DNA of 62,473 bases from assembly GCA_020860565.1 (NCBI GenBank), contig JAJBUA010000056.1, positions 1-62,473 of the forward strand, given 5' to 3'. Position numbers and translations under genes: made by a program. Of this stretch, positions 7,542-18,561 are shown piece by piece. Source of the DNA: Clostridiales bacterium. Its GTDB lineage: Bacteria; Bacillota; Clostridia; Lachnospirales; Lachnospiraceae. Position 1 is the stretch's first letter. Each line of letters opens with the position of its first letter. The notes beneath the pieces are model-generated. The model had not been told where the DNA came from. It did not search any database and worked only from the letters and a program-made list of their open reading frames with translations.

Positions 7542-7554
7542 ATTCACTATAACC

Positions 7555-7648
7555 AAGGAGATGGGGAGCTGGCTGTAACCGGCTGAGAGGAAGCTGCATC
7601 GCTTCGACCCTTAACCTGATTTGGATAATGCCAACGTAGGGAATTCCG
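7555..7648 (+). ncRNA. TPP (THI-box) riboswitch
   Basis: The conserved parts of the thiamine-pyrophosphate aptamer are present in order: GGGGAGC, CGGCTGAGAG, the P3 stem GAAGC/GCTTC, ACCCTT, AACCTGAT, and GGATAATGCCAACGTAGGGAA. It lies between a strong promoter and an intrinsic terminator and precedes thiW-thiD-thiC, so it should switch off this locus when thiamine pyrophosphate is plentiful. Confidence 0.96.
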
Positions 7649-7667
7649 TAAGCTGACGAGCGATAAA

Positions 7668-7691
7668 GAGGTGCCTGCGCACCTTTTTTTA
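7668..7691 (+). terminator. Riboswitch-linked intrinsic terminator
   Basis: AGGTGC-CTGC-GCACCT (7669-7684) followed by a run of seven T. It sits ~20 bases past the TPP aptamer and is most likely its expression platform. Confidence 0.85.
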
Positions 7692-7725
7692 TTTCTGAAA
7701 GACAGTCTGCGAGGTCAGGCACGAG

Positions 7726-7749
7726 AGTTCCGCTTTTGCGGGACTTTTT
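7726..7749 (+). terminator. Second terminator-like hairpin before thiW
   Basis: AGTTCCGC-TTTT-GCGGGACT with one G.T pair, followed by TTTT. It lies between the first terminator and thiW. Two terminators in series after the aptamer would tighten repression, or it may be a remnant of a duplicated platform. Confidence 0.6.
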
Positions 7750-7828
7750 CATTTGATGAAAAAACCTTTTTATTAAAAGTTTTCATCCGGGAAAAGTCCT
7801 TCGTGCAGGAAAGGAGAGTTTTATTTTT

Positions 7829-8332
7829 ATGAGAAGCAACGACACAACCAGAAAACTGGCACTTGCCGGAGTTCTGACAGCGGTTGCTGTCGCCGGGAGC
7901 CTGCTCAGCTTTCCCGTGGCGGGGAGTAAATGCGCCCCGATCCAGCATATGGTCAATGTTTTTGCCGCTGTAGCGCTCGGCCCGTGGTGGGGATTTGCCA
8001 TCGCCTTCTGCGCGAGTCTGCTGCGTAATCTGATGGGGCTCGGCAGCCTGATGGCCTTCCCCGGCAGTATGCTTGGCGCGCTGTGCTGCGGTCTTGTCTA
8101 TGCCGCCACGAAAAAGATCGGTCCGACCTGCTTTGCGGAAGCTTTCGGGACCGGCATTCTGGGGGGACTCGCGGCGTATCCGGTCGCGCGGTTCCTGATG
8201 GGCATCCACCCGGCGGGGTTATTTGTCTACATGATCCCGTTCCTGATTTCCACGGTTGCAGGAAGCATCCTGGCATTTGTACTGCTGGGGATCCTGGAAA
8301 GAGGCGGAGCGTTAAGCAATATCCGTGGATAG
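7829..8332 (+). CDS. thiW: ThiW, predicted ECF-transporter substrate-binding (S) component for a thiazole precursor
   Basis: 167 residues, five to six hydrophobic spans. The sequence fits the ThiW family: MRSNDTTRKLALAGVLTAVAVAG.., VAGSKCAPIQHMVNVFAAVALGPWWG, SLLRNLMGLGSLMAFPGSMLGA. Known: ThiW is predicted from riboswitch context to be the membrane S component that brings the thiazole moiety (or relatives) into the cell, sharing an energising module encoded elsewhere. The GGAG site is rather far (~12 bases) from ATG 7829. First gene after the TPP riboswitch and followed by thiD, so uptake of one half of thiamine would be paired with synthesis of the other half. Confidence 0.85.
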   Translation: MRSNDTTRKLALAGVLTAVAVAGSLLSFPVAGSKCAPIQHMVNVFAAVALGPWWGFAIAFCASLLRNLMGLGSLMAFPGSMLGALCCGLVYAATKKIGPTCFAEAFGTGILGGLAAYPVARFLMGIHPAGLFVYMIPFLISTVAGSILAFVLLGILERGGALSNIRG

Positions 8333-8408
8333 CGACTATGAAAAATAGCGGATTGGGGGCACCACTTTCCGCGGCTGTTATTACATTACAATTCACAGGA
8401 GGTTTCTC

Positions 8409-9212
8409 ATGATGAAAACAGCTTTAACGATCGCTGGAAGTGATTCCAGCGGAGGCGCCGGCATCCAGGCAGATATTAAGACGATGACGGCTCATGGAGT
8501 TTATGCCATGAGTGCCATCGCCGCTCTGACTGCCCAGAATACGACCGGCGTTTATGATATCATGGAGGTGACACCGGAGTTTCTGGCCACACAGCTGGAC
8601 TGCATTTTTACCGATATTTATCCGGACGCGGTAAAGATCGGGATGTTATCTTCCAGAGAAATCATGAAAACGACGGCGGATAAACTCCGCTCCTATCAGG
8701 CAAAACATGTTGTCCTTGATCCGGTTATGGTAGCGACCAGCGGCTCCCGGCTGATGCGGGAGGACGCGGCGGAAACCATGGTTGCTGAACTTTTTCCGCT
8801 CGCAGAGGTGATTACGCCCAATATTCCGGAAACGGAGATTCTCTCCGGCATGGCGATCCATGATGCTGCGGATATGGAAAAGGCCGCTGCTCTTCTGTAT
8901 GAACGCTGCCACTGTGCCGTGCTCTGCAAAGGCGGGCACCGGATCAATGACGCTAATGATCTGTTGTTTGCCGACGACAAAGCGATCTGGCTTGAGGGGC
9001 GCCGCATCGACAATCCCAATACGCACGGAACCGGCTGCACGCTTTCCAGTGCCATTGCCAGCAACCTGGCGCTTGGCGCCGATCTGGTGACAGCTGTGCG
9101 AAATGCCAAGGAATATCTCTCCGGGGCGCTCGAAGCGCAGCTGAACCTTGGTAAGGGTTCCGGACCGTTAAATCATGCTTACGCGATCCAGCCGCCTGTT
9201 TCCATCAACTAA
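8409..9212 (+). CDS. thiD: ThiD, hydroxymethylpyrimidine / phosphomethylpyrimidine kinase
   Basis: 267 residues with the ribokinase-like fold: LTIAGSDSSGGAGIQADIKT at the N-terminus, VLDPVMVATSG near residue 105, and the anion-hole motif NTHGTGCTLSSAIASNLA near residue 205. ThiD phosphorylates HMP to HMP-P and then HMP-PP for thiamine synthesis. AGGAGG precedes tandem ATGs at 8409 and 8412. It lies 76 bases after thiW under the same riboswitch; the ThiC product (HMP-P) is its substrate. Confidence 0.95.
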   Translation: MMKTALTIAGSDSSGGAGIQADIKTMTAHGVYAMSAIAALTAQNTTGVYDIMEVTPEFLATQLDCIFTDIYPDAVKIGMLSSREIMKTTADKLRSYQAKHVVLDPVMVATSGSRLMREDAAETMVAELFPLAEVITPNIPETEILSGMAIHDAADMEKAAALLYERCHCAVLCKGGHRINDANDLLFADDKAIWLEGRRIDNPNTHGTGCTLSSAIASNLALGADLVTAVRNAKEYLSGALEAQLNLGKGSGPLNHAYAIQPPVSIN

Positions 9213-9261
9213 CTGACAATCAGGAATAAACGGCCGCGAAGCCAGTTCACAACAATATAAC

Positions 9262-9351
9262 TTATCGGAAGTTCCGTTAGGAACTGCCGATAAAGGGGGC
9301 ATTAGCCCCGTCCATCGATTATAGGGTTCTGCGTCAGCAGGTTCCTATAAT
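9262..9351 (+). promoter_or_regulatory. Structured leader with three hairpins upstream of thiC
   Basis: Three stem-loops follow one another between thiD and thiC. (1) 9262-9293: TTATCGG and CCGATAA plus AGTTCC/GGAACT around GTTA, one mismatch in 14 pairs. (2) 9296-9309: GGGGC-ATTA-GCCCC. (3) 9318-9351: ATTATAGG/CCTATAAT enclosing CTGC-GTCA-GCAG with a symmetric GTT/GTT internal loop. None is followed by a T-run. It does not match a TPP aptamer. It could be a processing or stability element setting thiC expression apart from thiD, or an unknown regulatory RNA. Confidence 0.6.
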
Positions 9352-9388
9352 ATCAATTACTCACAAAATTTCAATGGAGGATAACACA

Positions 9389-10699
9389 ATGGAAGCTTAT
9401 ACCACACAGATGGATGCTGCGAGAAAGGGCATCCTTACCCCGCAGATGAAAATCGTCGCCGAAAAAGAACATATGTCAGAGTCCCCGCTCATGAAGCTGG
9501 TCTCTGAGGGCAAGGTCGCTATCTGCGCCAACAAACATCATACCTGCCTGAACCCGGAAGGCGTCGGCAGCGTGCTCCGCACCAAAATCAATGTCAATCT
9601 TGGCGTTTCCCGCGACTGCAAGGATTATAATATCGAAATGGAAAAGGTTATGAGTGCGGTCAACATGGGCGCGGAAGCAATCATGGATCTCTCCAGCCAC
9701 GGAGACACGCAGCCGTTTCGCCGCAAGCTGACTCATGAGTGCCCAGCCATGATCGGCACGGTTCCGGTCTATGACAGTGTCATTCATTATCAGCGGGATC
9801 TTTCTACTCTGACGGCTCAGGATTTCATCGACGTCGTGCGGATGCATGCGGAGGACGGCGTTGATTTCGTCACGCTGCACTGCGGCATCACGCGCAAGAC
9901 CATTGACCAGATCCGCCGCCATAAGAGGAAGATGAACATTGTCAGCCGCGGCGGCAGTCTGGTATTTGCCTGGATGAGCATGACCGGTGAGGAAAATCCT
10001 TTTTATGAATATTTTGATCAGATTCTCGATATCTGTGAAGAACATGACGTTACGATCTCGTTAGGCGACGCCTGCCGCCCGGGCTGTCTGGCCGATGCTA
10101 CCGACGTCTGTCAGATCGAAGAGCTGGTGCGTCTGGGCGAATTGACCAAGCGCGCGTGGGATCACAATGTCCAGGTCATGGTCGAAGGCCCCGGCCATGT
10201 GCCGTTAGATCAGATTGCCGCCAATATGCAGGTACAGAAAACCATCTGCATGGGCGCTCCCTTCTATGTCCTCGGTCCACTGGTGACAGATATCGCTCCC
10301 GGTTATGATCATATCACATCCGCTATCGGCGGCGCGGTAGCCGCCATGAACGGCGCGGCATTTCTCTGCTATGTGACCCCGGCGGAACATCTCGCCCTGC
10401 CAAATGTCGACGACGTCAAACAGGGTATTATCGCTTCCAAGATCGCCGCTCACGCCGCGGATATCGCAAAAGGAATCCCCGGCGCACGCGATATTGATGA
10501 TAAGATGGCGGACGCACGCCGCGCCCTCGACTGGGACGCGCAGTTTGCCTGTGCGCTGGACCCGGAGACCGCCAAGGCGATCCGCGACAGCCGCAAGCCG
10601 GAGGACGATCACAGCGACACCTGCAGTATGTGCGGCAAATTCTGCGCGGTCCGCAGTATGAATAAGGCGCTTGCAGGCGAATATATCGATATTCTGTAA
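9389..10699 (+). CDS. thiC: ThiC, phosphomethylpyrimidine synthase
   Basis: 436 residues from ATG 9389 (GGAGG eight bases upstream), preferred over the ATG at 9374 that would overlap the ribosome site. Conserved blocks include [60 protein letters not shown] and [20 protein letters not shown]. The C-terminal 4Fe-4S/SAM motif is CSMCGKFC, i.e. CX2CX3C as in the short clostridial ThiC, one residue tighter than the common CX2CX4C. ThiC converts aminoimidazole ribotide to HMP-phosphate by radical SAM chemistry. It lacks the long N-terminal domain found in many aerobes. A strong palindromic terminator follows. Confidence 0.97.
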
Positions 10700-11372: not shown

Positions 11373-12140
11373 ATGGCTCATAAACTGACCGTTAAAAATC
11401 TATCTTATGCCTACCACTCGATGGAGGGAGAAACACCGGCTCTGAAAGAGCTTTCGTTCGACGTAGAAAACGGTGAATTTCTCTCTGTTATCGGACCTTC
11501 TGGCTGCGGAAAATCCACGCTCCTGTCACTTCTCTGCGGCCTGCTGACAGCCGAAAGCGGCGAAATCCTGATCGACGGAGAGCCGGTCGAAGACCATCGG
11601 TCCACGATCGGATATATGCTCCAGCGCGACCACCTCTTTGAATGGCGAACGATCCTGGCAAACGCAGCTCTCGGTCTTGAAATCCAGAAAAAAAGGAATG
11701 CCGAAAGCGAAAAGGAGTTGTCCGAAATGTTTGCTGCTTATGGCCTGAACGGCTTCCAGAACGCGAAACCATCCGAACTCTCCGGCGGTATGCGGCAGCG
11801 CGCTGCCCTGATCCGGACACTTGCCCTGAAACCGGATCTGCTGCTTCTGGATGAACCTTTTTCCGCGCTGGACTACCAGACCCGGCTCTCAGTCTGCGAT
11901 GATATCAGCGGCATTATCCGCATTACAGAAAAGACCGACATTTAAATCAGACATGATATCTCCGAAGCCATCAGCATGTCAGACCGGATCCTCGTACTGA
12001 CCAAAAGACCCGGAACCATCCGAACTCTCATGAAGATTTCCTTTTCCCCCGAATACGACACACCTCTCAAACGCCGCAACGCCCCGGAATTTGCAGGCTA
12101 CTTTCAGAAGCTCTGGGAATACCTGCGCGAAGACACATAA
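11373..12140 (+). pseudogene. ABC transporter ATPase (SsuB/TauB/ThiZ type), interrupted by an in-frame stop
   Basis: The frame runs 256 codons from ATG 11373 (GGAGGG upstream) to TAA 12140 but has TAA at 11943-11945. Before it are the Walker A GPSGCGKST, the Q-loop, the signature LSGGMRQRAALIRTLAL and the Walker B LLLLDEPFSALD. After it the same frame continues with the H-loop region (RHDISEAISMSDRILVLTKRPG) and the usual C-terminus. Without suppression the product ends at residue 190, before the H-loop His, and should not function. The partner permease gene is also broken (17860-18561 and 12229-12327), so the whole transporter looks lost. Family members import nitrate, sulfonates or thiamine precursors; the nearby thiC makes the last plausible but unproven. 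Confidence 0.85.
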
Positions 12141-12228: not shown

Positions 12229-12327
12229 TCAGGAAAATTTCTTTTCCAGCCACGTGATTCCCTGATACAGCCCCGCGGAAACCAGGCACAGAATTACGAT
12301 TGACATCATTACCATATCCAGTTGGAA
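12229..12327 (-). pseudogene. 3' fragment of the split ABC permease gene
   Basis: On the minus strand these 33 codons read FQLDMVMMSIVILC.. to ..WLEKKFS and a stop, which is the normal last membrane span and tail of SsuC/TauC/ThiX-type permeases. The fragment has no start of its own. It joins in frame, at the codon TTC, to the 5' part that ends at 17860, 5.5 kb away. Joined, the permease is 266 residues, the usual family length. The insertion between the two parts is the serine-recombinase element. Confidence 0.88.
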
Positions 12328-12342
12328 GCGGTGGCGAGGCAT
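12311..12342. other. attL: left junction of the serine-recombinase element
   Basis: Host permease sequence (..CATATCCAGTTGG) meets element sequence (GCGGTGGCGAGGC..) at the dinucleotide AA, 12326-12327. The same AA is found at the right junction (17858-17859). A two-base shared core is what large serine recombinases leave behind. Confidence 0.8.
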
Positions 12343-12546
12343 AATGAAAATCTTACTATCCTCATTTTACCACAGCTGGATTCTTTTTACTATCGCATAA
12401 ACAGTAAAAAAGAAAAGCCGCATATAGAATCTTATTTTGACTCTTGCGATCACTGTTTCGCTATGCTAAAGTATCTGTAGATTCAAAATTATGGTGTGAA
12501 GAATTTCTGATTTCTTTTTGTTGTAGATTTTTCGGAGGGATAAAAA

Positions 12547-14136
12547 GTGGGCACCTATTTAAATCCAGGCAATGACGGCTTTCAGACCATAAGGAACGGC
12601 ATCTATGTGGACAAAACCGGACTGATCGATTATATTAACCGCACGATTTCTACCTCATCAAAGCTGACCTGTTTCAGCCGTCCCAGACGTTTTGGAAAGT
12701 CGTTCGCGGCAAAAATGCTCTGTGCTTATTATGACAGAAGCTGCGATTCTAAAACGTTATTTACCGGGCTGGAAATCTCAAAAATGGATTCTTTTTCCCA
12801 GTATCTTAACAAATATGATGTAATTTTCCTTGACATTACATGGTTTATTTCCACGACAACAGATATCCGCCATGTTGTTTCCGATCTGCAAAACAATGTC
12901 ATCCGGGAGCTGCAGGCGGCCTTTCCTGACGCCGCGGATTACACAGAGCCATCTCTGCCCCGCGTTCTTTCCGATATTTCAGATAAAACAGGAAAGCGCT
13001 TTGTGATTATCATCGATGAATGGGATGCGCTGTTTCGCGAAGCAAAGCATGACGATGCGCTGCAAAAAGAATATATTCAGCTGTTGCGCGGACTATTTAA
13101 GGGCGGAATCTCCACAGACCGAATGATCGCGGCAGCCTATATGACCGGCATCCTCCCGATCAAAAAATACGGCACAGAATCTGCTCTGACCGACTTCAAT
13201 GAGTTTTCCATGACCAATCCTTCCAAACTGGCCCGCTATGTCGGTTTCACGCAGGACGAGGTGCAAAATCTTTGCCAGACCTTTCATATGGACTTTGAGA
13301 CAATGCGCATCTGGTATGACGGTTACGCGTTCAGCCGGGTTCGGCACGTATACAGTCCAAATTCTGTGATTAAAGCATTACAGAACGAAGAATATCAAAA
13401 TTACTGGACCAGTTCCGAGACCTATGAATCACTGAAAAGCTATATCAGCATGAACCTGGACGGATTAAAGGACACTGTCATCGCCATGCTGGGTGGTCAG
13501 CCGCAAAAAGTGGAAACCCTTTATTTTCAAAATGATCTGACCAGCCTTACCAACAAGAATCATGTTCTCACCTTGCTGGTACATCTGGGATATCTGGCCT
13601 ATGATCAGAAAACCAAAGCCGTTTCCATCCCCAACCTTGAAGTGGCCGACTCCTTCCGACTCGCCGTCCAGGACTCCGGCTGGGAAAAGATTGGCGCAGC
13701 CCTTGAAAACTCTGAAGATTTACTGGCTGCCACAATCCGGGGAGACTGCCGCGCAGTTGAAAATGCTCTCGAGGAGATTCATTACGCAAAGTCCTCCATC
13801 CTGGAATATAATAACGAAAATTCACTGGCATGTGCCATTACTATCGCTTACTACACAGCTAAAAGATTTTATGAAATATTCCGTGAACTCCCTTCCGGTA
13901 AAGGTTTTGCTGACGTTGTATTCCTTCCACACAAGGATACCGATAAACCTGCTATTCTTATCGAATTAAAATACAATAAATCTGCTGACGCTGCTATCCA
14001 GCAGATTAAAGACCGACGTTACACCGGCAAGCTCAGCGATTATAAAGGGAATCTTCTTCTAGTCAGGATTAATTATAATAAGGACAGTATCGGCAAAAAA
14101 CACGAATGTGTCATGGAATGGTTTCAGCAGTGCTGA
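12547..14136 (+). CDS. AAA-ATPase-like protein with C-terminal PD-(D/E)XK nuclease-like domain
   Basis: 529 residues starting at GTG 12547, seven bases after GGAGGG. The N-terminal half matches the AAA-ATPase-like family: FQTIRNGIYVDKTGLIDYIN, a Walker A-like FSRPRRFGKSFAAKML near residue 40, and a Walker B FVIIIDEWDALFRE near residue 155. The C-terminal ~130 residues fit the DUF1703/PDDEXK_9 nuclease-like fold, with Asp in GKGFADVVFLPHKD and the E-x-K of AILIELKYN. Known: these proteins are common and multicopy in gut bacteria, but their role is not established. It is the leftmost gene of the serine-recombinase element, so it is probable cargo. Confidence 0.85.
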   Translation: MGTYLNPGNDGFQTIRNGIYVDKTGLIDYINRTISTSSKLTCFSRPRRFGKSFAAKMLCAYYDRSCDSKTLFTGLEISKMDSFSQYLNKYDVIFLDITWFISTTTDIRHVVSDLQNNVIRELQAAFPDAADYTEPSLPRVLSDISDKTGKRFVIIIDEWDALFREAKHDDALQKEYIQLLRGLFKGGISTDRMIAAAYMTGILPIKKYGTESALTDFNEFSMTNPSKLARYVGFTQDEVQNLCQTFHMDFETMRIWYDGYAFSRVRHVYSPNSVIKALQNEEYQNYWTSSETYESLKSYISMNLDGLKDTVIAMLGGQPQKVETLYFQNDLTSLTNKNHVLTLLVHLGYLAYDQKTKAVSIPNLEVADSFRLAVQDSGWEKIGAALENSEDLLAATIRGDCRAVENALEEIHYAKSSILEYNNENSLACAITIAYYTAKRFYEIFRELPSGKGFADVVFLPHKDTDKPAILIELKYNKSADAAIQQIKDRRYTGKLSDYKGNLLLVRINYNKDSIGKKHECVMEWFQQC

Positions 14137-14184
14137 CAATCAAAAGAGAGGAAAAGTCACATCATCCACGTCTTTTCCTCTCTG

Positions 14185-16092
14185 CTATCCGTCATCGGGG
14201 CCTTCATGCACAATCCACTCCCCATGCCCTCCCCGCCCGGCAAAGGTAACGATTCCTTTTTTCTTCAGTTGCCGGATTCTGGCGTTGATCGCAGATACAC
14301 TGACCTGCTCTTTCTGCGCAATCATTTTTGCAGTAATCCGCGGATTTTCCCTCATGTACTGCACGATCCGCTCCCGCTCCGCTTCCTTTCGCCCCTCATA
14401 GAAGAATTCTTTTTCTAATGCTACTTCCCACTGCACTCCCTTTTCCAGACTATCTGTACCTGTTGCAAGAGACTTTGCCTGCCCCCGCGTATCTTCCATC
14501 ATCTGTGCATCAATCCCCGGCGCCTGATCCGGCCGAAATGTAATCCGAAGTTTATCCTCGTATACCTCGATCTGACGGATGCTGTCCAGTATCTCAGCTG
14601 TCATTGCCTGCCTCAGTATATCTGTTTCCAACCGTTCACAGATGATCTGCAGGCGCTGCTCCGCCAGGGGCTGTTCTTTTTGGCTATTCTCCTGACGATC
14701 CTGTATCGCCTTCTTTTTCTCCGTCAATTTTTTTATCTTATCCGTCAGTTCCTGATTCCGCTTCTTATAATCCATATCAGAAATCACCTCGGCCAGAAGC
14801 TTATCCAGAAGTTTACTGCGTTGCTGCTCATATCTGTCGATACTTCTCTGCAGCTTTTTGATTTCCGACGATCCGTCCTCCTCTCCTAAAACTTCTTCAA
14901 GCAGACGGATCGCCTTATTCATAATCGTCTGGTAATCTGGCACTGACTTCCCATAATACTGCTCTGCCACCTTTTCGAGCAGATGATACAACTGTTCCTC
15001 TTCCAGGTGAACATTATCACAACCTCTTCCGGGTTTGATTTTAACAGTTCGAACAGAATCGCGTTTCTTATCCTCACAGTTTCTCCCATACTGCAGATAG
15101 CGTTGGCATTTCCACTCAATCACCGGTTTTCTGCTTCGACAAGCCCTGCGTCTGGTCCGATAATACGGGCCTTTGCATACCCCGCAGCGGATCTTTCCCG
15201 ACAGCTGGTATTTTCCTGTGTTAACACCTCTTAAATACTGGTTTTGTTCTTTACTCCCCGTCGATCTCCTGTCCATAGCCTCATTTGCTTCTCTCCACTC
15301 ATCTTCCGTTACGGCAGCCGGGACAGCGTTCCTATGTATCACCCACTCACTCTCCGGCACACTCACCGGCTTCTTTGTCTGGAAATCGAAATGCTTCCGA
15401 TTCTGTACCACCATTCCGCAACGGATTGGATTCCGTATGATCCTTCGGACAGCCTGTGAGTCAACCGGCTTCCCATTTCGATTGCGATAGCCGTTTTCCT
15501 CCAGATAATGTGCGATGGAAGTACACCCCATATCTTTACTCAGGGCAAAGATGATGCGGATCACCTCCATCTCTTCTTCGACCGGCACGAAATTCCCATT
15601 CGCATCTTTCTGCAAACCGAAGGTTTGGGGCGGCAGGAGAAAACTCCTGCCGTCCTTCTGCCGATGTTGGTGGGCGTTATTGATCTTTTTGGAGAGCTCC
15701 TTACTGAACTCCTCTGCCAGGATCGCCTTAATGCCGGTAATCAGGGCATCGTCAGCAGAATAAAATTTCCGTTCGAGGTAAAGATACAGGCGCTTCCCAT
15801 TTGACACCAGACGGTCAATGAAGAGATACCAGTCCTTCGTATTCCGCATCAGCCGGTCCTGTGACTTCACCTGCACAATATCGAACTGATCCGTCTGTAA
15901 ATCCTCAAAGAGCCGGTTATACTCACCCCGTTTCTCCGTCGTTGTGCCGCTCCTGGCCTCGATATACTCGCCAACCACGAGCCAGCCCTGCTGCCTGACA
16001 CATTGCCGGGACTCGATCACCTGCTGCTGGAGCGCGTTCTGCTGGGCTTCCTCCTCAGTACTGCATCGGCAATAGATAACCGCCCGGAGCAT
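14185..16092 (-). CDS. Large serine recombinase (site-specific integrase/resolvase family)
   Basis: 635 residues. The resolvase-type catalytic domain (residues ~1-150) begins AVIYCRCSTEEEAQ, with catalytic Ser11, and has QDRLMRNTKDW and FSKELSKKINNAHQHRQKDG. The recombinase domain (~155-270) is followed by a zinc ribbon (CGVCKGPYYRTRR..EWKCQRYLQYGRNC), a coiled coil (~400-490) and a C-terminal winged-helix-like segment (ITAKMIAQKEQVSVSAINARIRQLKK). Such enzymes join attP and attB with a 2-bp crossover. Its ATG overlaps the stop of the small ORF upstream (TAATG). The catalytic residues and full length look intact, so the element could still be active. Confidence 0.93.
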   Translation of the reverse strand: MLRAVIYCRCSTEEEAQQNALQQQVIESRQCVRQQGWLVVGEYIEARSGTTTEKRGEYNRLFEDLQTDQFDIVQVKSQDRLMRNTKDWYLFIDRLVSNGKRLYLYLERKFYSADDALITGIKAILAEEFSKELSKKINNAHQHRQKDGRSFLLPPQTFGLQKDANGNFVPVEEEMEVIRIIFALSKDMGCTSIAHYLEENGYRNRNGKPVDSQAVRRIIRNPIRCGMVVQNRKHFDFQTKKPVSVPESEWVIHRNAVPAAVTEDEWREANEAMDRRSTGSKEQNQYLRGVNTGKYQLSGKIRCGVCKGPYYRTRRRACRSRKPVIEWKCQRYLQYGRNCEDKKRDSVRTVKIKPGRGCDNVHLEEEQLYHLLEKVAEQYYGKSVPDYQTIMNKAIRLLEEVLGEEDGSSEIKKLQRSIDRYEQQRSKLLDKLLAEVISDMDYKKRNQELTDKIKKLTEKKKAIQDRQENSQKEQPLAEQRLQIICERLETDILRQAMTAEILDSIRQIEVYEDKLRITFRPDQAPGIDAQMMEDTRGQAKSLATGTDSLEKGVQWEVALEKEFFYEGRKEAERERIVQYMRENPRITAKMIAQKEQVSVSAINARIRQLKKKGIVTFAGRGGHGEWIVHEGPDDG

Positions 16093-16205
16093 TATGTCTT
16101 TCCCCGACGAATACGTTCAATCAGGCGATGTTCTTCGTCTATCGTAATCAGATGCTCATTACGCAGCATTGCGATCATCCGAATCAGGATTTCATTTTCC
16201 CTCAT
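16092..16205 (-). CDS. 37-residue SHOCT-like protein coupled to the recombinase
   Basis: Read from ATG 16205 (AGGAG eight bases upstream) to TAA at 16094-16092, which overlaps the recombinase ATG as TAATG. The product, starting MRENEILIRMIAMLRNEHLI and ending ERIRRGKT, resembles the short helical SHOCT domain (x-L-x-x-G/E-x-I-x-x-E-E). An upstream ATG would give 41 residues. Translational coupling suggests it works with the recombinase, for example as an accessory or directionality factor, but that is inference. Confidence 0.6.
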   Translation of the reverse strand: MRENEILIRMIAMLRNEHLITIDEEHRLIERIRRGKT

Positions 16206-16288
16206 ACCTTCGTCTCCTGCTTCATTCATGCCTTATCGGCACACCTTACAACACAACATATGCCGACAGGGCTTGTCATCATCCCACT

Positions 16289-16320
16289 CTTACTAAGCAA
16301 ATAACTTACTAAACAAACGA
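16289..16320. repeat. Two adjacent 16-bp direct repeats upstream of the recombinase operon
   Basis: CTTACTAAGCAAATAA at 16289-16304 and CTTACTAAACAAACGA at 16305-16320 match at 13 of 16 positions, head to tail. They lie ~85 bases upstream of the small ORF start, where an operator or recombinase-accessory site could be. Confidence 0.6.
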
Positions 16321-16514
16321 ATTGATTAACAATAGCCCTGATTCCACACGGTCAGCATGTTTCATTTCCGGGACTGAGAAAGTGGGTTTTCGCCTCATGC
16401 ACACCCCCCATTTTCGAGAAAAACAAAATCATAATTTATTTTATCCGGATTATTTCTGATCGTCAATTTAAAATTGTAAAATAATACTTAAAATATCCAG
16501 CTTGCCCGTTTTTA

Positions 16515-16543
16515 CTGACATTTTCGTTTGCTTATGCTACAAT
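16515..16543 (+). promoter_or_regulatory. Promoter of the PNPOx/TerD fusion gene
   Basis: -35 CTGACA (16515-16520), a 17-base spacer and -10 TACAAT (16538-16543), each one base from consensus. It points to the fusion gene starting at 16626. Confidence 0.75.
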
Positions 16544-16625
16544 GAATACACAATGATACAAACAGAAAGGAAGTGAACAGCCGGGACCTATTACCCTCGG
16601 CACTATTATGATCGGTGACAGACCC

Positions 16626-17822
16626 ATGCGAAGATTTGACGCACAGATTCATGACCGGGAGCTGATCCGTGAGATTCTGGATCAGATTATGGTCGTCCAT
16701 ATCGGGGTGCAGGATGGTGATTACCCCTATATCGTTCCTCTGTATTTTGGTTATGAGATAACGGAGGATAAACTGCTTATCTATGTACACGGAGCCCGTG
16801 AAGGTCATAAAATCGACCTTTGGAAGAAAAACCCGAAGGTCAGCCTGACTTTCAGTATGTTTACCAACCATCCGGGAATCATGTATAAAGGAAATAATCA
16901 TGATTATCGCAGCATCATGGCTAACGGTCTGATGCGTAAGGTCGAGCGCAATAAAAGCGGAGGTCAGCACGGGAGAGCCGTGCAGGCGATCCTCAGACAT
17001 TATGGCCGCGGCCGAACCGAATTCAGCGTTCCTCACTATATGTTCATGGATATTTATGTCGCAGAATGTGACTGGAGCCATGTGACGGCAAAAGCCGGTA
17101 TCCCGTTTCTAAGTGCCGATGAAGTCGCCTTCCCCGACCGGAAAACCATGCTCGCCAGCACAGAACCTCCCTGTGACTACGGCTTTTTCTTCTGCCGGAA
17201 ACCTTATGAAAAGACAGCCGGCGCGGCAATATCCACATTTTCCGTTCCTGACGGACTGCCGGATCTCCCCGCGAAGACTGATATCCGCTTTCCAGCCGAC
17301 GCCCGGCTAAGCCTTCGCTTCTTCTGGCAAAGCCGACAGGAGCAAATGCCGGATTATGACGTGATCGCTTTTGTGCTGGATCAAGACGGAAAGATCCCCC
17401 GACGGTACGACATCGCCTTTTATAATCAGACGAAGGACCGAAGTGGGATGGTCTGTCATCTCGGCGATGATATTCTGCAGACAGACGGTCAGGAGGAACT
17501 TTGGGTCGATCTGGAAAAAGCACCGGAATTCTGTGGACAGGTTCTCTTCCTGCTGACTACCTACGAGGCAGACACCCGGGCAGTAAATCTGGACGATTTA
17601 AGCGGAATCGGACTGGAGATTCGGGATAGAAACACAGATAAAAAAGAATTGGCCTATGCGATCTGCCCTGAGCATACGGGGAAAAAGACAATGGTACTGG
17701 CAACCCTGACCCGGCAGGACGACGGCAGCTTCCTTCTGGGAGGACCGAACGGCGCTGCCTACGACGTCTGGCGGGCAACCGATCTTTTTCCGCTCTACGG
17801 ACTTGTACGGTGGAAGGAATAA
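16626..17822 (+). CDS. PNPOx-like flavin-binding domain fused to a TerD domain
   Basis: About 398 residues. ATG 16626 is chosen because a weak GGTGA lies before it; ATG 16608 in frame has no ribosome site. Residues ~1-155 match the pyridoxamine-5'-phosphate-oxidase-like/NimA-like family (VVHIGVQDGDYPYIVPLYFGYE, LLIYVHGAREGHKIDLWKKNPKVSLTF, EFSVPHYMFMDIYVAE), which binds flavin. Residues ~195-398 fit TerD: DYDVIAFVLDQDGKIPR, YDIAFYNQTKDRSGMVCHLGDD, and a second half ending LFPLYGLVRWKE. TerD folds bind calcium and are linked to tellurite and stress resistance. The fusion is unusual to my knowledge. It is the rightmost element gene, 37 bases from attR. Confidence 0.75.
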   Translation: MRRFDAQIHDRELIREILDQIMVVHIGVQDGDYPYIVPLYFGYEITEDKLLIYVHGAREGHKIDLWKKNPKVSLTFSMFTNHPGIMYKGNNHDYRSIMANGLMRKVERNKSGGQHGRAVQAILRHYGRGRTEFSVPHYMFMDIYVAECDWSHVTAKAGIPFLSADEVAFPDRKTMLASTEPPCDYGFFFCRKPYEKTAGAAISTFSVPDGLPDLPAKTDIRFPADARLSLRFFWQSRQEQMPDYDVIAFVLDQDGKIPRRYDIAFYNQTKDRSGMVCHLGDDILQTDGQEELWVDLEKAPEFCGQVLFLLTTYEADTRAVNLDDLSGIGLEIRDRNTDKKELAYAICPEHTGKKTMVLATLTRQDDGSFLLGGPNGAAYDVWRATDLFPLYGLVRWKE

Positions 17823-17842
17823 AGGATATCTTTTTTATCATA

Positions 17843-17874
17843 CAGCCTTCTCACTGCAACACCTGACTTCCATA
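17843..17874. other. attR: right junction of the serine-recombinase element
   Basis: Element sequence (..CCTTCTCACTGC) meets host permease sequence (CACCTGACTTCC..) at AA, 17858-17859. Joining the host flanks of attL and attR at this AA gives ..CCAGTTGG-AA-CACCTGAC.., the inferred attB, which restores the permease codon TTC. Confidence 0.8.
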
Positions 17875-18561
17875 GATAATCAGATATCCCAGCCCTTTCT
17901 GCGCCGCAAGGAATTCCCCGATGATGACTCCCACCAGGCAGAGGCCTATATTGACCTTCATATTGCTGATGATCAGCGGTGCGGAACCTGGCAGCAGGAC
18001 TTTTACCAGAACGTCTGCGCGCGTCCCGCCCAGTGACTCGATCAGCCGGATCTGATCCGGATCGGTACCTGCAAATCCATTGTAAAGCGTCATCACGGCT
18101 CCAAATACCGCCACGGATACCGCCGCCGTCACGATAGTCCGCGTATGGCTGCCCAGCCAGACGATCAGGATCGGCGCCAGGGCTGATTTGGGCAGGCTGT
18201 TCCCGATCACCAGATAGGGCTCCAGGATCTGCGCGCCGCCGCGGCTCAGCCACAGCAGCACCGCCACGGTGATTCCCAGAACTTCTGTCAGCAGAAAGCT
18301 GAGCAGCGTCTCTCCCAGTGTAATCCCGATATGTCCGAAGATACTCCCGTCCGCTGCCATGCGGATCAGGCAGCGGACGACCCGCGTCGGCGAACTGAAA
18401 ATAAAGGCATCCATCATGCCCAGCCTCGTGCAAAGCTCCCACAACGCAAGCAGGAGAATCAGCAGCATCGCTCGGCAGATCCTGACTGTTCTCCTGTGAA
18501 ATATTTCTCTCTCAATATATTTTTGCTGAGCCGCGGTCGGCCCCGGTCTCCCTCGTTCCAT
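17860..18561 (-). pseudogene. 5' part of the split ABC permease gene
   Basis: 234 codons from ATG 18561 (AGGAGG seven bases upstream) encode a SsuC/TauC/ThiX-type permease: five or so hydrophobic spans and the ATPase-contact loop ESLGGTRADVLVKVLLPGSAP. The natural end LGYLIIYGSQV is followed by LQ and a stop supplied by the inserted element, so the last span is lost. The missing end is at 12229-12327. Normal function would be import of a small oxyanion or thiamine precursor together with an ATPase and a binding protein; the ATPase gene at 11373 is also broken and no binding-protein gene is seen here. Confidence 0.9.

Follow-up and report, generated by a model that had tools for sequence, protein, structure and literature searches.

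Serine-recombinase elements docked at one codon of an ABC permease gene in Lachnospiraceae

The interrupted permease gene

The DNA analysed here (the window; 62,473 nucleotides, contig JAJBUA010000056.1 of a Lachnospiraceae genome) carries a gene for an SsuC/TauC-like permease of the ATP-binding cassette (ABC) type which is interrupted by a 5.5-kb element at 12328-17859. Both permease pieces are on the minus strand. The 5' piece (17860-18561, codons 1-234, Pfam BPD_transp_1) ends at 17860. The 3' piece (12229-12327) starts at 12327 and comprises, according to the predicted topology, the last transmembrane segment together with the stop codon. The break is directly after codon 234, and the following codon starts with TT. 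This dinucleotide, AA on the plus strand, is present at both ends of the element, i.e. at 12326-12327 on the C side and at 17858-17859 on the N side. Joining the pieces at the common dinucleotide resulted in 266 codons, the frame already proposed in a first-pass annotation. Counting one core copy the element is 5,532 bp long (12328-17857 between the copies); its G+C content is 47.3% compared with 51.5-51.6% in the flanks. The 40 bp beside each core copy are assigned as half-sites of the element attachment site, attP, from empty sites in congeners and from arm symmetry (see below).

The inserted genes were found as described in the first pass. They are a large serine recombinase (LSR; 14185-16092, minus strand, 635 amino acids), an open reading frame (ORF) of 45 amino acids overlapping its start (16092-16229, minus strand) and two cargo genes on the plus strand. 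The latter encode a protein with AAA-ATPase_like and PDDEXK_9 matches (12547-14136; Pfam) and a Pyridox_ox_2-TerD fusion (16608-17822; Pfam and NCBIfam). The Pfam and NCBIfam matches of the element included no phage structural or packaging gene, no relaxase and no conjugation gene, in line with the initial description of an element without transfer or phage genes.

Occupancy of the dock and its attachment sites

Genomes were sampled as one genome per species. All 24 searched genomes of the genus had the permease gene. In 17 of them it was whole, with a frame that runs stop-free across the site, and retained the segment corresponding to 12229-12327 in frame; relatives lacking this segment, considered possible at the outset, were not encountered. 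Seven had the gene split at the same codon, each with the recombinase on the permease strand. G014, a candidate for a further interrupted gene, was ruled out and is among the 17: its TGA precedes the start codon. Junctions and whole congener genes agree on a serine-recombinase element within an ABC permease gene with base-level ends, as the first pass had it. In a family-wide sample 206 of 397 genomes had the permease, and among the matches listed only those of G000 (the window genome), G621, G569 and G502 end short. Dock occupancy across the family is sporadic.

Seven recombinases were used as queries against named genomes and the best 80 of 157 relatives were kept; five of these loci are genus members already counted. 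By their titles the 80 loci are mostly from Lachnospiraceae or related clostridia. A permease piece was located within the fetched flank in 73 of them (5' piece in 67, 3' piece in 49, both in 43). One more locus, L143, is the contig of G010, in which the permease pieces are further out than the flank. The order-level matches L156, L157 and L161 were likewise beside the permease. The TT core was present at all N-side (71/71) and all C-side junctions (50/50) that were read. Because the core was identical at every junction, the split is not a matter of chance.

In the 44 loci with both ends, the element arms matched their inverted partners at 61.5% over positions 3-32. Shuffled arms matched at 27.5% (standard deviation 1.2%, 500 shuffles) and host arms at 23.9%. 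As the element arms are symmetric and the host arms are not, attP is symmetric and the chromosomal site attB is different from it. Relative to the permease the recombinase had the same orientation in 13 and the opposite one in 60 of the 73 loci. Given symmetric attP arms, this mix need only reflect the gene order inside the element. In L073 and L199 (G569) the permease pieces are on opposite strands, as by inversion or misassembly. The window element belongs to a large family that shares this docking codon and a conserved small partner, and its cargo varies between elements. With related cassettes at this position in many gut bacteria, the codon looks like a dedicated dock.

Recombinase, partner protein and cargo

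By Pfam the window recombinase consists of Resolvase, Recombinase, zinc ribbon and C-terminal winged helix domains. Across 62 family members Resolvase and Recombinase were matched in all, the zinc ribbon in 60 and HTH_24 in 56, and the catalytic serine S11 was invariant. In a structure model (mean predicted local distance difference test 82, predicted TM-score 0.55) residues 439-504 form a long helix, as expected for the coiled coil of an LSR, and the winged helix is at about 565-628. In a fold search with this model the SPbeta and phiC31 integrases came first, with low whole-chain TM-scores. Domain order, coiled coil and fold, and a symmetric attP with a different attB and a common core identify the protein as an LSR. 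The cassette chromosome recombinase models scored far below their cut-offs (CcrB 52, CcrA 43 and CcrC 34 bits; cut-offs 900, 700 and 900). The best NCBIfam match was XisF (NF041201), the excision recombinase of the fdxN element, with 90 bits, again far below the cut-off of 375. In a scan that favours intact copies, the recombinase frame was open in 85 of 89 examined loci; the other four had no fitting ORF, and no stop within the match.

With a profile built from 14 of the small ORFs, a match was obtained at 76 of 86 loci; outside the seed species the count was 60 of 70, and shuffled ORFs gave none. An LSR typically integrates unaided and excises only together with a directionality factor, and the 45-amino acid protein is a candidate for this factor. 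A resemblance to SHOCT was not upheld: Pfam gave two weak, implausible matches for seven examples. The family offers an LSR with clear attB and attP and a conserved small partner in which this role can be tested.

By the standard of serine-integrase carriers, the first-pass annotation regarded the element as very small. This is correct in comparison with prophages, but within the family it is ordinary: 43 bounded elements measured 3.1-11.1 kb (median 6.1 kb; the 10-kb flanks bias sizes low). The largest measured elements were those of G004 (20.4 kb) and G010 (33.8 kb). Apart from the recombinase, 141 ORFs of 120 amino acids or more were counted in the 43 bounded elements. Pfam scans covered 127 of these, and two lists show the best 25 of 29 and the best 25 of 30 families. 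The other 14 are 13 ORFs from L075 and L128, which have several families in common with L132, and the AAA protein of the window. Among the families listed were those of transport (TRAP, PTS, FecCD, SSF), enzymes (shikimate dehydrogenase, POR, AMP-binding) and signalling (GGDEF, EAL, MCP, histidine kinases). Further ones were AAA-ATPase_like/PDDEXK_9, domains of unknown function, one ParA-like protein (ParA/AAA_31) and, as transposase types, one IS110 and three PDDEXK_2 matches. Phage-structural, relaxase and conjugation families were absent from the families listed for the 127 ORFs. The commonest cargo was the AAA/PDDEXK cluster with 14 ORFs in nine elements. The whole genome of G000 contains eight above-cut-off AAA-ATPase_like (PF09820) matches, one of which is that of the element. 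One cargo protein of the scanned elements matched Antibiotic_NAT (PF02522, E 2.7e-62).

Cargo turns over: L106 and L119 have near-identical 5' permease pieces (synonymous distance, dS, 0.03) and recombinase modules with 97.6% identity, yet elements of 7.7 and 3.4 kb. Similarly, the window genome and G019 have the recombinase region (89.7% identity) and both ends in common; their AAA genes are 66% identical and in opposite orientation, and the Pyridox_ox_2-TerD gene of the window has no counterpart in G019 beyond its last bases.

Movement of the cassette and fate of the split gene

These elements most probably are cassettes similar to gin and to the staphylococcal cassette chromosome (SCC), with a fixed dock at a permease codon and exchangeable cargo. 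The LSR would recombine the symmetric attP of a circular cassette with a single fixed attB, located at the codon that precedes the last permease segment, with crossover at TT (AA on the plus strand). The insertion truncates the permease. Excision by the same LSR, probably with the 45-amino acid protein as directionality factor, would restore the gene exactly. Since no transfer genes were recognised in the cassette, it presumably rides other elements or enters cells through uptake of DNA, for the most part between close relatives, and the cargo would be swapped behind a constant module of recombinase and ends.

Do the cassettes move? In a tree of the genus permeases, with strong support for only 5 of 21 inner branches, the split and whole states required at least six changes. 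In some pairs element and host are separated by their synonymous distances. In L121/L122 dS was 0.27 for the recombinase and 0.75 for the permease, in L105/L117 it was 0.55 and 0.18, respectively. Strict vertical inheritance was considered, as hinted at by the correlation of identities given below, and was rejected: it is weakened by the dS values between G000 and G019, i.e. 0.25 for the recombinase, 0.31 for the 5' permease piece and 0.47-0.86 for other flanking pieces. Phages and plasmids were rejected as carriers: all matches in 301 phage and 144 plasmid records had less than 60% identity, and none of six relatives in IMG/VR (36-57% identity) adjoined the permease.

Several observations weigh against the proposed cassette. 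Neither a circle nor an excised state was observed, and sampling one genome per species leaves no two strains of a species that differ in the element. The identity of the recombinase declines along with that of the permease (Spearman 0.53, 68 loci), and all 16 pairs with a recombinase identity of at least 78% have permeases of at least 82%. Among 2,278 pairs, recombinase identity exceeded permease identity by 10.7 points at most. Because the identities track together, wide recent transfer was not seen. Further, six of the 80 loci were unplaced, their contigs being 3-12 kb long, and the recombinase relatives L195 and L196 (34% identity) are located elsewhere than in the permease.

SCC elements are serine-recombinase cassettes with a Ccr recombinase and attB in rlmH. 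As outlined in the Discussion of the gin paper, they have in common with the present elements a serine recombinase, one chromosomal dock, variable cargo and a lack of transfer genes (PMC5595907). SCC is the nearest system in lifestyle. It fails on the recombinase, which is not Ccr as judged by the scores above, and on the target, an ABC permease gene instead of rlmH. In plan, the nearest known system is gin in gerE of Bacillus cereus ATCC10987, going by the account in PMC5595907. There, too, a non-phage serine-recombinase element splits a coding gene, the core contains AA, the element site is symmetric and a second small factor is needed for excision; here the 45-amino acid protein is a candidate for such a factor. 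In contrast, gin splits a sporulation gene, has three recombinases and 31 genes, and its excision is proven, whereas excision of the permease elements is inferred. The skin element of Clostridioides difficile and SPbeta are described as prophages or prophage-like, reside in sporulation genes and have demonstrated excision (PMC5025042, PMC4191935). They resemble the present case as LSR-type elements in a split host gene which excision rebuilds, or here would rebuild. As in such gene-intervening elements, the permease is a coding gene split such that exact excision would restore the frame; it is not a sporulation gene. Durrant et al. report diverse LSRs with one conserved coding target and name ComM-type and prolyl isomerase targets; in the main text of that paper 'permease' and 'Lachnospir' are absent (PMC10083194). 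A literature search covering titles and the start of abstracts, with supplements and preprints outside its range, returned nothing on this permease site. The data suggest that a cassette system with a single site is widespread among gut Lachnospiraceae, and that it carries metabolic and signalling genes and no recognised phage or conjugation genes.

What is the state of the interrupted genes? None of the 68 split N-pieces contained a stop. Median dN/dS of split pairs exceeded that of whole pairs in each of the three dS bins (0.102 vs 0.083, 0.245 vs 0.166 and 0.170 vs 0.131; L190, the window sequence, and L179, the sequence of L078, were excluded as 'whole' rows since they are split genes, and L164 as a duplicate of L051). 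Mixed pairs were high, too, sampling may contribute and dS nears saturation. Outside the element, the neighbouring ABC ATPase gene (11373-12137, plus strand) has an in-frame stop at 11943-11945 in the window; four other genomes with a split permease (G019, G012, G022 and G004) have it without interruption. Just upstream of it, at 7552-10699, are a thiamine pyrophosphate riboswitch and thiW, thiD and thiC. A role of the permease in thiamine transport, as these neighbours might imply, is unproven: for the permease of a relative the nearest NCBIfam models were SsuC, SaoP and TauC, all below cut-off. In L194 (G117:C3, 6129-13480) a broken recombinase has a whole permease copy plus a short repeat of the 5' junction on one side and an orphan 3' piece on the opposite side; this is a partly duplicated, decayed dock. 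L202 (MT836003.1), filed as 'Bacteriophage sp.', looks from its gene content like part of a bacterial chromosome; its permease is split and its recombinase is truncated to about 276 residues.

Possibly the cassette is a gene switch, as skin, SPbeta and gin are for sporulation genes, with excision regulated such that the permease is restored in some cells or conditions and the cassette controls the transporter. The stop-free N-pieces, the uninterrupted ATPase genes of the four other genomes, the precise, frame-restoring boundaries and, as a single case, the whole permease copy accompanying the broken recombinase in G117 fit such a switch. We nevertheless consider it rather unlikely. Split pairs have the higher dN/dS in each bin, the ATPase of the window has a stop, dock occupancy is sporadic, and the gene in L202 is still split despite a truncated recombinase. 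In addition, movement has been recent in some pairs by dS, and young insertions could account for intact pieces. The dock provides a natural test for the switching of a transporter by mobile cassettes outside the context of sporulation. A more far-reaching proposal would be that a vegetative transporter gene is a dedicated and reversible dock across many Lachnospiraceae, in which cassettes switch the transporter and swap metabolic and signalling cargo, with the 45-amino acid protein as the first of a new type of directionality factor and with a winged helix built into the LSR itself; to this we give little credence at present.

Similarly doubtful is that the element is a reduced integrative mobilisable or conjugative element mobilised in trans. 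The element lacks transfer genes, so that moving between close relatives would require some carrier, and the single ParA/AAA_31 match in the cargo would be in keeping with this. Yet neither relaxase nor conjugation families appeared among the families listed for the 127 scanned ORFs, with two lists showing the best 25 of 29 and the best 25 of 30; an origin of transfer was not sought. Still less probable is a fixed relic island, i.e. one-way insertions which disabled a dispensable transporter and are no longer mobile. The ATPase stop, the damaged recombinases of G117 and L202 and the elevated dN/dS of split pairs argue for it; the open recombinase frames, even if the scan favours intact copies, the stop-free pieces and the patchy distribution with cargo turnover argue against it. 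Finally, an assembly artefact or two unrelated genes, to which the 125 contigs of the window assembly might point, can be dismissed, as it is refuted by identical junctions in many separate assemblies, including those of the named isolates Eisenbergiella tayi DSM 26961 (L084) and Faecalicatena orotica (L100), and by the whole genes in the congeners.

A different insertion was noted in L195 (G333:C41, 5926-11149). Here a penicillin-binding-protein gene, spoVD-like by eye, lies in two parts with the distant recombinase relative (34% identity) between them. In two congeners this gene is a long open frame of 588 and 586 amino acids.

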